From Halopelagius longus (lineage in GTDB: Archaea; Halobacteriota; Halobacteria; Halobacteriales; Haloferacaceae): a stretch of 64,000 bases of DNA. The position numbers were made by a program, and so were the translations under genes. Positions 24,969-59,716 of the stretch are shown here, one piece after another. Each line of letters starts with the position of its first letter. Position 1 is the stretch's first letter. The notes beneath the pieces are model-generated. The model worked only from the letters and a program-made list of their open reading frames with translations. It ran no database searches and was not told the DNA's origin. The stretch is from positions 124,001-188,000 of the forward strand of contig NZ_FNKQ01000001.1 of assembly GCF_900100875.1 (NCBI RefSeq), given 5' to 3'.

Positions 24969-26201
24969 TCAGTCGCCGTCGATTTCGAACCGCGCGGCCC
25001 CCCACCGCGTCGAGACGTACAACCCGTCGCTCCGTATCGCCGCGCCGTTCATCGTGACGTGGTCGGGTAGCCACCCGCACCGGTTGTCGTACCGACTCTC
25101 GGAGGCCCGAAATCTCCGTACGCAGGTCCCCGCGTCGGTCACGCCGTACACGTATCCGATTTGGTCCGCGACGTACGCTTCGACGGACGCCTCGTCGGCG
25201 CGGGCGGTTCGGTCGGACTCGGTTCGATCGGCCGCGGGGCGCAGACCGGCGATGCCGCCGACGGGCGCCTCCGCGCCGAACCGCCACCGTTCCTCGCCGT
25301 CGTCGAGGCGGTACGACGCCGCGTTCCCGTCGCCGTCGCCGAGGAAGAGGCGGCCGTCCGTCGCGTCGAGCGCCGTCGGCGTCCCCGGCGTCGATGCCGT
25401 CCACGCCGCCTCGCCGGTCTCCGCGTCGAGAGCGACGACCGATCCGTCGTCCGCGACGACGGCGCGGTCCCCGGACTCGACGACCGGTTGCCGGACGCCG
25501 GTGGCGCGGGAGACGACCCAGCGTTCGGACCCGTCCCCGGGGTCCAGACCGTACACCGTCCCCGACTCCGTGGCGACGACGAGGGTTCCCGCGACCGCCG
25601 CGGGGTCCGAGAAGGTCGGTCGGTCTATCGGCGCGGTCCAACGAACCTCGCCGTCGGTCGCCCCGAGAGCTACGACGCGGTGGTCGTAGTCCGCGTCGTC
25701 GGAGGGGTCCGGATTCGCGGTGGCGGCCGTCGAGACGGGGACGAAGACGGTGCCGTCGGCGACTGCGGGGCGCGCCCACGCGCCGCCGCCGATGGTGTCC
25801 TCCTCGCTCCCGTCCCACACCCACCGCGTGTCGCCGGTCACCCGGTCGAACGCGTGGACCGTCTCGTTCCCGGTTCCGGCGTAGACCGTCTCTCCGGCGA
25901 CGGCCGGCCGACCCCACCCCGAACCGGTCGTCGTCCGCGCCCACGCCGCCTCGCCGTCCCACGGTTGCAGGGCCGCGAGGCGGGTGGGTCCGTCGAACCC
26001 CGTTATCCCGAACCGTTCGCCGAGGAAGAGGGCGTTCGGTCCGAAGGCGGGCGTCGTCCAGTCCTCGCCGTCGTGTTCCCACGTGGGGTCTTTTCGCGAC
26101 GGACAGGTCCCGGGGAGGCGGCGGCCCGAGAGGACGAAGCCCGCGCCGCCGAGTGCGGCGGCACCGCCGACTGCGCGGATGAACGTGCGTCTGGAGGGCA
26201 T
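24969..26201 (-). CDS. Tat-exported PQQ-type beta-propeller protein
   Basis: A 410-aa protein with the Tat signal SRRTFIRAVGGAAALGG at residues 3-19. At least seven repeats of the PQQ/WD-like type follow, visible as recurring AxDxxTGExxW and GTVYAGTGN-like blocks. Only propeller repeats are seen, with no catalytic dehydrogenase residues, so a scaffold or BamB-like role is more likely than enzymatic activity. There is no lipobox cysteine at the cleavage site. It lies 84 bp upstream of hisS on the same strand. Confidence 0.88.
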   Translation of the reverse strand: MPSRRTFIRAVGGAAALGGAGFVLSGRRLPGTCPSRKDPTWEHDGEDWTTPAFGPNALFLGERFGITGFDGPTRLAALQPWDGEAAWARTTTGSGWGRPAVAGETVYAGTGNETVHAFDRVTGDTRWVWDGSEEDTIGGGAWARPAVADGTVFVPVSTAATANPDPSDDADYDHRVVALGATDGEVRWTAPIDRPTFSDPAAVAGTLVVATESGTVYGLDPGDGSERWVVSRATGVRQPVVESGDRAVVADDGSVVALDAETGEAAWTASTPGTPTALDATDGRLFLGDGDGNAASYRLDDGEERWRFGAEAPVGGIAGLRPAADRTESDRTARADEASVEAYVADQIGYVYGVTDAGTCVRRFRASESRYDNRCGWLPDHVTMNGAAIRSDGLYVSTRWGAARFEIDGD

Positions 26202-56766: not shown

Positions 56767-57600
56767 ATGAGCGAAGAAACGACGGTCCTCAGTCAGTCGG
56801 CCCCGCTCGACCTCCGCCTCTCGGAGGACGAGCTCGAACGGACGCGCGAGCACATTCTGCAGTTCATCCGAGACGTCGTGGACGACGCCGGCGCGGAGGG
56901 CGCGGTGCTCGGCCTCTCCGGCGGTATCGATAGCACGGCCACGGCGTACCTCGCGGCGGAGGCACTCGGCGAGGAGAACCTCCACGGCGTCGTGATGCCG
57001 AGCGAGGTAAACGCCGAGGAGAACATGAGCGACGCCGAACGAGTCGCCCGGATGCTCGGAATCGAGTACGACGTCGTCGAGATTCAGCCAATCGCCGAGC
57101 AGTTCTTCGAGGCGTTCCCGGAGGCCGCAGACGACAAGCGCGCCGCCGGCAACGTCTACGTGCGGACGCGGGCCGTCCTCGGCTACTTCGTCGCCAACTA
57201 CGAGAACAAGATCGTGCTCGGGACGGGCAACCGCTCGGAGGCGCTCCTCGGCTACTTCACGAAGTACGGCGACCAAGCGGTGGACTGCAACCCCATCGGG
57301 AACTTGTACAAACAGCAGGTCCGACAGCTCGCCGTCTCGATGGGCGTCCCCGAGGACCTCGTCTCGAAGACGCCCTCCGCGGGGATGTGGATCGGACAGA
57401 CCGACGAGGAGGAGATGGGCGTCGGCTACGACACCTTAGATGCCGTCCTCGCACTCCACGTGGACGGACCGCTCTCGAAGTCGGCCACCGTCCGCCACCT
57501 CGACATCCCCGAGTCGCAGGTCGAACGCGTCGTCGAACTCTACGAACGGAGCGAACACAAGCGCCACATGCCGCCCGCACCCGAGTCGCTCCGCCCCTGA
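56767..57600 (+). CDS. nadE: NH3-dependent NAD synthetase
   Basis: A 277-aa enzyme that amidates deamido-NAD+. The PP-loop is GLSGGIDSTATAYL. Other motifs are VVMPSEVNAEENMSDAERVA, RTRAVLGYFVANYENKIVLGTGNRSEALLGYFTKYGDQAVD, KQQVRQLA and LVSKTPSAGMWIGQTDEEEMG. No glutaminase domain is present, hence ammonia-dependent. The ATG at 56767 fits a TATA-like CTATTAG ~30 nt upstream; the earlier in-frame Met lies too close to that box. Confidence 0.96.
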   Translation: MSEETTVLSQSAPLDLRLSEDELERTREHILQFIRDVVDDAGAEGAVLGLSGGIDSTATAYLAAEALGEENLHGVVMPSEVNAEENMSDAERVARMLGIEYDVVEIQPIAEQFFEAFPEAADDKRAAGNVYVRTRAVLGYFVANYENKIVLGTGNRSEALLGYFTKYGDQAVDCNPIGNLYKQQVRQLAVSMGVPEDLVSKTPSAGMWIGQTDEEEMGVGYDTLDAVLALHVDGPLSKSATVRHLDIPESQVERVVELYERSEHKRHMPPAPESLRP

Positions 57601-57644
57601 TTTCGGGCCCCTGACGTTCTGCGTCGCTCTCTCGATTCCGCTCT

Positions 57645-57964
57645 TCACTCCCGGTCGGCGGCGATGTCGTCATGCGAAGCCTGACAACTTGCCGAGGTTT
57701 CCTCGGCAATGTCGTCGGCGTACCGCCCGTGGAGACGCGCGAACGCCTCGGGGGCCGAGAGGTCGGCCACCGTATCGAGGTCCGCGCCCGCGCAGAAGGC
57801 GTCCTCGCCCGCGCCGCGCAGGTAGACGACCGGCGTCTCCGAGGCGTCCGTCTCGGCTATCGCCGCCCGCAGGGCGTCGAGGTCGGCGGGTCTGAGCGCG
57901 TTTCGCCGGGCCGGCCGGTCGATGGCACCGTCCGAACGCGTCCGTCCGCCGTCGTCCGAATCAT
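57645..57964 (-). pseudogene. Truncated, frameshifted enoyl-CoA hydratase remnant
   Basis: Beginning at the ATG at 57964 the frame reads MIRTTADGRVRTV. A single missing base after the GTG around 57926 then moves the sequence to another frame that continues IDRPARRNALRPADLDALRAAI, ending with GAGEDAFCAGADLDTVADLS. These are the N-terminal hallmarks of crotonase-fold enoyl-CoA hydratases. The remaining two thirds (the helical part and C-terminus) are absent. The reading frame runs into a 60-bp double-hairpin segment and stops. The frameshift could be a sequencing error; the truncation cannot. Confidence 0.8.
57651..57710 (-). repeat. Double-hairpin segment, copy A
   Basis: Read on the minus strand this 60-bp segment has GCCGAGG-AAA-CCTCGGC (perfect 7-bp stem) directly followed by GTCAGGC-TTC-GCATGAC (one mismatch). 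It aligns without gaps to 58351-58410 on the plus strand at about 46-47 of 60 positions. It lies at the broken end of the enoyl-CoA hydratase remnant. Confidence 0.6.
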
Positions 57965-58023
57965 GCGCCGTTCTCCGGCGCGTTTCCAAAGGTCTTTGCC
58001 CCTCCCGCCGTAACCCTCGCTCG

Positions 58024-58803
58024 ATGGACGACGCCGTGCGGGCCCGCGATGCCGCGCGTGAAGTGCTCGACGACATCGAACCCGAACGCCTCAGGGAGGT
58101 GCTGTTCGACCGCCTCGCCGACACCTCGATGACGCCCGCGGTGCTGACGTTGTTGAGCGCGCGCGCACTCGACCCGGACATGGACGCCGACGCCGTAGAG
58201 ACTGGTTCTGCGGACCACCGGACGAACACCGGCGATACCGACGGAATCGCACAACAGGCCGCCGGCGTGCAACTCATCTACGAGGGCCTCAGACTCACCC
58301 GGTCGCTCGCCCACGACGTTCCGTGGACGACGATGACGGACGACAAAGACACCGCCGAGGGGACCCCGGCAAGCAGTCAGGCGACGCCTGACGATATCGC
58401 CGCCGACTTGGACGTTCTCGCGGCGGACGTGCTGGTCTCTCGGGGGTTCTACCTCCTCGCCCGCACCGACGCGGCCACCCGCGCCGTCGAAGTCGTGCGG
58501 GCGTTCGGCCGCGACCAGACCCACCGCCGCGCCGAGGGCGCGGACACGGCGGCCCTCGACCGGAACTTGGAGGCCGACATCTTCGCGCTGGCCGTCCTCA
58601 CCGGCACCACCGCCGTCGGCGGCGAAGCGTCGCCCGCGCTGTTGGACTTTGCGACCGACCTCGGCCGCGAGTGCGACGTGGAGGACGGCCTCGTCCCCGC
58701 CGCGACGGCGTTCTCCGAGGCGACCACCGACCGCATCGCGTCGCTGTCCGCCGTCGAGTCGGGGTCCGACGACCGAGTGCCCTCCTCCGCGACGGACCGA
58801 TAG
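58024..58803 (+). CDS. Conserved haloarchaeal helical protein (DUF7114-like) with a palindromic insert
   Basis: A 259-aa, mostly helical acidic protein: VRARDAAREVLDDIEPERLREVLFDRLADTS, then IAQQAAGVQLIYEGLRLTRSLAHDVPW, and VLAADVLVSRGFYLLARTDAATRAVEVVRAFGRDQT. The helical pattern with aromatic and Arg-rich positions recalls DUF7114 (from memory), which some databases place near prenyl-synthase-like helical folds, though no DDxxD motif is seen. Residues ~110-129 (linker TAEGTPASSQATPDD) are encoded by the second copy of the double-hairpin segment, an in-frame insertion. Confidence 0.8.
   Translation: MDDAVRARDAAREVLDDIEPERLREVLFDRLADTSMTPAVLTLLSARALDPDMDADAVETGSADHRTNTGDTDGIAQQAAGVQLIYEGLRLTRSLAHDVPWTTMTDDKDTAEGTPASSQATPDDIAADLDVLAADVLVSRGFYLLARTDAATRAVEVVRAFGRDQTHRRAEGADTAALDRNLEADIFALAVLTGTTAVGGEASPALLDFATDLGRECDVEDGLVPAATAFSEATTDRIASLSAVESGSDDRVPSSATDR
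58351..58410 (+). repeat. Double-hairpin segment, copy B
   Basis: Inside the DUF7114-like gene, with GCCGAGG-GGA-CCCCGGC (one mismatch) followed by GTCAGGC-GAC-GCCTGAC (58376-58392, perfect). The reading frame is kept through it. See copy A at 57651-57710. Confidence 0.6.
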
Positions 58804-58878
58804 ACCCGTGAAACTCCCTGTCGCACCGCATCCGAATCGAAACGCCTAAAGAGAGTTCGGCATTATCAGAAGACGCGC

Positions 58879-58950
58879 GCCTGGGTAGCTTAGCGGTAAA
58901 GCGCGTCCTTGGTAAGGACGAGAGCCCGGGTTCAAATCCCGGCCTAGGCT
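58879..58950 (+). tRNA. tRNA-Thr (GGT)
   Basis: A 72-nt cloverleaf: acceptor GCCTGGG/CCTAGGC (one G-U pair), anticodon stem CGTCC/GGACG enclosing loop TTGGTAA (anticodon GGT), T arm CCGGG-TTCAAAT-CCCGG. The discriminator is T and CCA is not encoded. The sequence immediately 3' turns AT-rich. Confidence 0.96.
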
Positions 58951-59206
58951 TTTCCTCCGTACACTCCTTATATGCACACTTTTATCGATGCGATCGTCTG
59001 ACCGAAACCCGTTCAAGATTCGCCTCTTCGCTAAACAGGGTTGAGCATCGCGGCGCTCGTAATCTGTTGGGCTGTCGCGTATTGGTCTGTCTATCATCAG
59101 GAAGGAAAGACGCCGTTCGATTCTGGCACATAAAGGGGGCTACTGACCAAACTCCCCGGAAATTATGATGGTCCAATAACAATTTCTATTCAGGTGTACG
59201 CCCCCG

Positions 59207-59716
59207 ATGACTGATACAACTCAACGCGAGAAGTACTCCGTGTCTGTTGGTTTCAATCGGAATCTTGGTGCCGAACTCAAAGTCGCACCGCGTGATGGTG
59301 AAAACGAGGTGGCTGTGGTCGAGCACACGCTGGCACCGGGGAAACTTGCTGCTCCGCTCCACCGGCACACAAACGAAGACGAGATCTCATACATTATCGA
59401 GGGACGGATGGGCGTTCAAGAGGGAGACAACACGTTCGTAGTTGAAGCTGGCGAGAGTGCTGTGAAAGGGCGCGGTATCTGGCATACGTTCTGGAATCCG
59501 GGGCCGGAATCGCTTCGATTTCTGGAGATTATCACTCCGGGTGACTTTGCTTGGTACTTTGCGGAAGCTGATGAGATTCTTCCAGATAATGGAGAGCCGG
59601 ACGCGGACGCGGCTGAGAAACTCGCTACTCTCCACGACCAGTACGAGTTCGAACTGTGCCCCGAGAGTGTGCCAGAGCTGATTGAACAACACGGATTAGA
59701 GACAGGTGAGGAGTGA
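59207..59716 (+). CDS. Cupin-domain protein
   Basis: A 169-aa protein with a single cupin barrel. Motif 1 is PLHRHTNEDEISYIIEGRMGV with the H-x-H...E metal ligands, and motif 2 is GRGIWHTFWNPGPESLRFLEI with the last His. A C-terminal helical extension of ~50 residues follows. Metal-dependent isomerase, dioxygenase or binding functions all occur in the family, so no function is assigned. Codon usage (GCT, GGA, ACT-rich) differs from neighbouring genes, consistent with acquisition from a less GC-rich source. Confidence 0.88.
   Translation: MTDTTQREKYSVSVGFNRNLGAELKVAPRDGENEVAVVEHTLAPGKLAAPLHRHTNEDEISYIIEGRMGVQEGDNTFVVEAGESAVKGRGIWHTFWNPGPESLRFLEIITPGDFAWYFAEADEILPDNGEPDADAAEKLATLHDQYEFELCPESVPELIEQHGLETGEE

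Follow-up and report, generated by a model that had tools for sequence, protein, structure and literature searches.

The two double-hairpin copies A and B found in the window, that is, the whole stretch of 64,000 nucleotides of Halopelagius longus DNA analysed here, are part of a dispersed family of repeats, and a chance pair is ruled out. Taken as a whole, the evidence makes it highly probable that both belong to a haloarchaea-wide family of very short, non-autonomous hairpin insertion elements, which enter beside GAC-like sequence and whose reading frame is filtered by selection. The earlier note had compared them with Rickettsia palindromic elements (RPE), as small palindromic elements inserting into genes in frame, and this reading gains support from further copies, linker-free orthologues, insertions of 15 codons and covariation of the stems at synonymous positions; each check that the note proposed turned out in its favour. 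The features of the window are collected in Table 1.

Table 1. Copies of the element, their hairpins and their host genes, in window coordinates (CM, covariance model).
Feature	Position	Strand	Description	Basis
Copy A, 45-nt insert	57669..57713	-	15 codons (EETSASCQASHDDIA or equivalent register) between GACGACATYGCC direct repeats, within the C-terminal tail of the hydratase pseudogene; empty in same-genus species	CM match 57660-57713, 67.5 bits
Copy A, stem I	57689..57709	-	9 bp, loop 3 nt, TTGCCGAGG-AAA-CCTCGGCAA, perfect	sequence
Copy A, stem II	57669..57685	-	7 bp, loop 3 nt, GTCAGGC-TTC-GCATGAC, one mismatch	sequence
Copy B, 45-nt insert	58348..58392	+	DTAEGTPASSQATPD, in the DUF7114 gene	CM match 58348-58401, 63.5 bits
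Copy B, stem I region	58352..58372	+	GCCGAGG-GGA-CCCCGGC, one mismatch	sequence
Copy B, stem II	58376..58392	+	GTCAGGC-GAC-GCCTGAC, perfect	sequence
Third, decayed copy	58189..58242	+	DAVETGSADHRTNTGDTD, also in the DUF7114 gene of copy B	CM match, 21.3 bits
DUF7114 (PF23426) gene, host of copy B	58024..58803	+	helical protein of 259 aa	Pfam E 9e-82
Enoyl-CoA hydratase pseudogene, host of copy A	57645..57964	-	1-nt deletion near 57925 (near gene start, frameshift); 429-bp in-frame internal deletion	
Surviving copy of 10-bp direct repeat	57740..57749	-	GAGGCGTTCG, deletion junction, ~27 bp from copy A	

The two 60-bp copies described in the earlier note, A at 57651-57710 on the minus strand and B at 58351-58410 on the plus strand, lie in opposite orientation and align with an ungapped identity of 47/60. 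Since the best non-self match of random 60-mers from the window reaches only 30-40 of 60 (200 samples), this similarity is beyond chance. Each copy also carries, as had been proposed, two stems with 3-nt loops, one of them perfect and the other with a single mismatch: the perfect one is stem I in copy A (GCCGAGG/CCTCGGC, extending to 9 bp) and stem II in copy B (GTCAGGC/GCCTGAC). Moreover, the decayed copy at 58189-58242, missed in the earlier note, retains 10/16 pairs and, in the alignment, has a counterpart in the same-genus species only. The best match of the covariance model outside these three copies scores 24.3 bits (25206-25259) and was taken as background. A search of positions 57000-59400 against Rfam 15 gave no match for the element, a tRNA (58879-58950) being the sole model above its gathering score. 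Nucleotide similarity to the same-genus species ends at the 3' end of this tRNA gene (window 58879-58960), and the sequence past it differs between the species, as if one genome carried an element integrated at the tRNA.

Further copies are present in the same genome and across Halobacteria. With copy A as query, the own genome first yielded another copy, in the linker of a different gene, and the same genus and family then supplied more. With the covariance model, 95 rows were obtained in the own genome at E <= 1, corresponding to about 40 distinct places above 30 bits, while the same-genus genome holds about 28 copies. The copies of this one genome are dispersed among unrelated genes, including those for enoyl-CoA hydratase (ECH), DUF7114, FAH-like and HTH-like proteins, a histidine kinase and others. 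At E <= 1e-7, matches were present in 302 of the 391 Halobacteria genomes, covering 70 of their 86 genera; the copy counts per genome are lower bounds, with 14 candidates scored in each. A draw across the whole phylum gave matches in 40 of 53 haloarchaea and in none of the 242 non-haloarchaeal genomes, the latter being a negative control formed by the remainder of the phylum, whose G+C content may differ. Viral contigs, phages and plasmids yielded no copies, which is weak evidence of absence, since they were searched with strict patterns or one 60-nt query. Some copies form tandem arrays with a period of 45 nt. At loci L047, L048/L057 and L049, extra hairpin modules adjoin the main unit (GACGAAC-nnn-GTTCGTC; CCAGAC...GTCT) and suggest nested or mixed arrays.

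Comparison with the same-genus species points to recent movement. At the site of copy A the difference is a clean 45-nt insertion, RYADDIA[EETSASCQASHDDIA]ADRE* versus RYADDIAAERE*, the sister sequence running ...GRYADDIAAERE* with no insert. Copy B differs by 45 nt and an additional 3-nt indel. The flanks served to place sixteen further loci: ten have no element in the sister species, where they are 15 codons shorter (in some cases with a small indel in addition), at one the element is common to both species, and the remainder are unclear or of low complexity. Twelve resolved sites (A, B and the ten others) are therefore filled here and empty there, with a difference of 15 codons (45 nt). The sites are not all clean, since at some of them the difference is about 30 nt or the sequence is of low complexity. 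Relative to their orthologues, the resolved inserts are in frame. Judged from this species-level presence and absence, copies A and B appear to be recent insertions, and the scarcity of own loci with an element at the orthologous place in the sister species suggests a rapid turnover. What these data show is turnover, seen as presence and absence between species, with transposition as its presumed cause.

The hydratase gene carrying copy A was, according to the earlier note, cut at the exact point where the element sits, losing its C-terminal two thirds. This is not the case. In the same-genus species the enoyl-CoA hydratase is full-length, and comparison with it places the loss of 429 bp between two GAGGCGTTCG repeats, whereas the C-terminal codons are kept on both sides of copy A. 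Truncation by copy A is thus ruled out by a separate deletion between 10-bp repeats. The claim that the reading frame passes uninterrupted through copy B in the DUF7114 gene was borne out, and its linker is missing from all aligned DUF7114 orthologues, including those of many other genera and of the same-genus species. In the AlphaFold model, the DUF7114 inserts correspond to two low-confidence loops between helices (mean pLDDT 49-62 at residues 51-70 and 101-120), and the surrounding helices score above 80. Other hosts include FolD, Kae1, TrpA, ValRS, IleRS, MsrB, thioredoxin reductase (TrxR), ABC ATPases, acyl-CoA dehydrogenase and the N-boxes of histidine kinases; except for FolD, MsrB, TrxR and Kae1, these names come from reading the sequences alone. 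PDB homologues of FolD, MsrB and TrxR are gapped at the insert, and residues 86-113 of Kae1, which include it, are unaligned with the PDB homologue. The histidine-kinase copies occupy one homologous site, and recombination among paralogues could account for the spread of many of them. In numerous haloarchaea, histidine kinases (L172, L173, L181, L189, L196, L200 and others) are of this kind: one to several tandem 45-nt units lie in the N-box (NAVEHGSTGNQTTSGDAVEHG...) and duplicate the N-box motif.

The palindrome is kept at the nucleotide level. Sixteen copies align without gaps across 54 columns, where 94% of the cells of the two-hairpin structure are paired, compared with 22-41% in slid controls; two-sided changes occur at 12 of the 16 pairs, and the observed score was reached by none of 500 shuffles. 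In hairpin I, some of the pairs join two third codon positions. Thus, at pair 12-18, GAA in codon 4 goes with T in codon 6 and GAG with C (12/0 vs 1/24, p = 7e-9), and the wobble-wobble pair 6-24 behaves alike (12/2 vs 1/29, p = 5e-8), both in non-kinase copies. The choice of these copies relied on a structure-aware model, with a bias towards paired arms, so the pairing test was redone in the sister species on matches of a sequence-only model: pairing amounts to 84%, versus 65% after shuffling (shuffle maximum 71%), a control that covers one genome. Shared ancestry bears on both pairing tests and was handled only by an 85% identity filter in the wobble-wobble test. Since the stems covary even at wobble-wobble positions, conservation acts on the nucleic acid, beyond the peptide alone.

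The encoded peptide is probably constrained as well. When the coding frame is called from the flanks alone (GC3 minus GC2), 66 of 80 copies in other haloarchaea have frame 0 as sense at both flanks, 12 at one flank, and 2 are ambiguous. Among 45 rows of the own genome, frame 0 is found on both sides in about 20 and on one side in about 15; the remaining rows score weakly, contain gaps or seem to be intergenic or antisense, and in one of them (L069, G000 C3:94581-94634; 51 bits) the flanking sequence appears to code in frame +1, which may be an exception to the frame rule. Nearly all copies share the frame and a peptide of the type xxAExTSASSQASPDDxx, which is fairly uniform (D-V-x-E-x-x-S...S-x-D-D) and halophile-like. 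In 60 of 63 non-redundant copies frame +1 contains no stop codon, yet it is hardly used, so that avoidance of stops does not explain the frame. The product of frame +1 is basic, with a mean charge of +2.9, compared with the acidic -2.6 of frame 0, and the frame preference is more likely due to selection on the peptide. Some copies, L056 (G000 C3:600480) and L024 (G001 metE end), have an in-frame TAG in a loop, near the N-terminus or ending the C-terminus of a gene.

Under the explanation that we prefer, the unit measures 45 nt and consists of a pair of related hairpins, with stems of 7-9 bp and loops of 3 nt, set between GAC triplets. It would insert next to GAC-like sequence similar to its own end, producing a 15-codon insertion between short imperfect direct repeats, and a filled site would still present the target, which accounts for the 45-nt tandem arrays. 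Most right flanks do open with GAC or a triplet close to it, resembling the element end, and the agreement between left and right 9-nt repeats within copies is 0.74, against 0.67 after shuffling, a weak target duplication. The unit is quasi-palindromic, which was compared with the terminal inverted repeats and target-site duplications of MITEs. Mobilisation would depend on trans-acting machinery operating on the folded single strand. Purifying selection would then clear the other frames, since only the sense frame would give an acidic, flexible, stop-poor linker that fits the surface of halophilic proteins.

Several rivals have to be weighed against these mobile hairpin elements. That the linkers are ancestral and the element was lost from the sister species has almost no probability left: one pairwise comparison cannot polarise gain and loss, but copy B is missing from orthologues of many other genera, and the FolD, MsrB and TrxR structures have no counterpart of the insert. 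Very unlikely, too, is a motif at the peptide level, in which a favoured acidic Ser/Thr linker would have spread by convergence or recombination between genes, with the palindrome as a by-product of codon usage. The rather uniform, halophile-like peptide with its mean net charge of -2.6 and the single site shared by the histidine-kinase copies would suit it; against it stand the covariation of synonymous wobble-wobble pairs (12/0 vs 1/24), the joint changes of the hairpin arms, the same 45-nt insert size in unrelated genes, and the existence of apparently intergenic copies and of copies with stop codons.

The remaining alternatives concern how the hairpins move. An element derived from REP/RAYT or IS200-IS605 systems, of the kind of CGTC- or GTAG-tagged REPs or the PATEs of Haloquadratum, would be moved by a Y1 HUH transposase. 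In its favour, there is a resemblance to CGTC REPs in the short hairpins, the repetition of units and the GACG beside hairpin II (CGTC on the opposite strand), RPE-4 and RPE-6 of R. conorii are CGTC REPs (PMC3733652), Y1_Tnp occurs in 118 of 167 genomes of the taxonomic family, and the transposase could have been lost after the spread. Nevertheless, a Y1_Tnp profile search (PF01797) of the own (G000) and same-genus (G001) genomes, with all their copies, had no match, which speaks against this transposase as their present-day mobiliser, and no dedicated mobilising enzyme was identified; moreover, the loops measure 3 nt instead of 4-5, and most copies lie within genes, whereas REPs are found mainly between them (PMC3733652), so we regard such an origin as improbable. 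Enzyme-free template switching of the hairpin strand at replication forks, directed by microhomology between GAC ends and GAC targets, deserves somewhat more credit, on the low side as it is. It would also keep palindromes perfect, in agreement with arms that remain complementary under sequence drift, and it is consistent with a target like the element end, tandem copies at 45 nt and no candidate transposase, but it fits poorly with one family at unrelated loci over 70 genera with a constant 45-nt size. The failure to detect a Y1 transposase in either genome, the GAC flanks and the tandem arrays together favour mobilisation in trans, with template switching as the main rival.

Among known systems, the closest in behaviour are RPE and the Wolbachia elements (WPE), which are palindromic, dispersed and inserted in frame within unrelated ORFs, reportedly in solvent-exposed parts of the host proteins; RPEs are bacterial and measure about 100-150 bp (PMC3767692, PMC10969869). 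The haloarchaeal element is likewise palindromic, dispersed and in frame in unrelated ORFs, but it is archaeal, falls outside that length range with its 45-nt inserts, and has two short hairpins with 3-nt loops and tandem 45-nt arrays. It works like an RPE but is probably a distinct family, set apart by length and description. Protein-coding palindromic elements of Methanocaldococcus jannaschii, as far as the citation of Suyama et al. 2005 in PMC2996958 describes them, are also archaeal palindromic inserts with coding potential, from a different lineage and comparable by description only. CGTC REPs have an unpaired CGTC tag, a stem of 8-9 bp starting with two A-T pairs, loops of 4-5 nt, a CCA tail and head-to-head dimers, and are mostly intergenic, some intragenic, without a known dedicated transposase (PMC3733652). 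The haloarchaeal copies share short hairpins and the GACG motif with them and differ in stems of 7-9 bp, 3-nt loops, direct 45-nt units and a mostly intragenic location; identity with a CGTC-tagged REP is ruled out by the 3-nt loops, the 7-bp stem II and the missing CCA tail. PATEs of Haloquadratum walsbyi carry near-terminal palindromes and are related to IS605-type transposons, and SMR-A measures about 110 bp; PATEs and SMRs resemble the present element as small, transposase-free palindromic repeats of haloarchaea, and in-frame gene insertion forms no part of their description in the available portion of PMC3119063. PARCEL elements are palindromic coding repeats that encode tandem protein repeats of 25 amphipathic residues, and their authors found none in archaea (PMC2996958). 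Published size and structure rule out an identity with PARCEL or PATE. The literature searched, in which subscription papers were scarcely covered, contained no earlier description from haloarchaea, and a prior one is possible.

In-frame palindromic inserts were previously known from Rickettsia, Wolbachia and one methanogen, and the haloarchaeal family adds a much smaller and very widespread archaeal case. A bolder description, to which we give a little less than an even chance, is that of a class-wide mobile element that persists almost exclusively as a linker read in frame within proteins: 45 nt under dual selection, for a DNA or RNA double hairpin and for an acidic 15-residue loop, which would have spread through essential Halobacteria genes without a known transposase, its own GAC ends matched to target GAC codons. 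This raises the question of how a 45-nt sequence moves without a detectable transposase, and Halobacteria include tractable laboratory hosts such as Haloferax volcanii. The element accounts for the NAVEHGSTGNQTTSGDAVEHG-type repeats within haloarchaeal histidine kinases and is relevant to annotation, alignment and phylogeny. Moreover, it offers a large natural experiment in which mobile DNA adds linkers to essential proteins, with closely related filled and empty orthologues for many enzymes.
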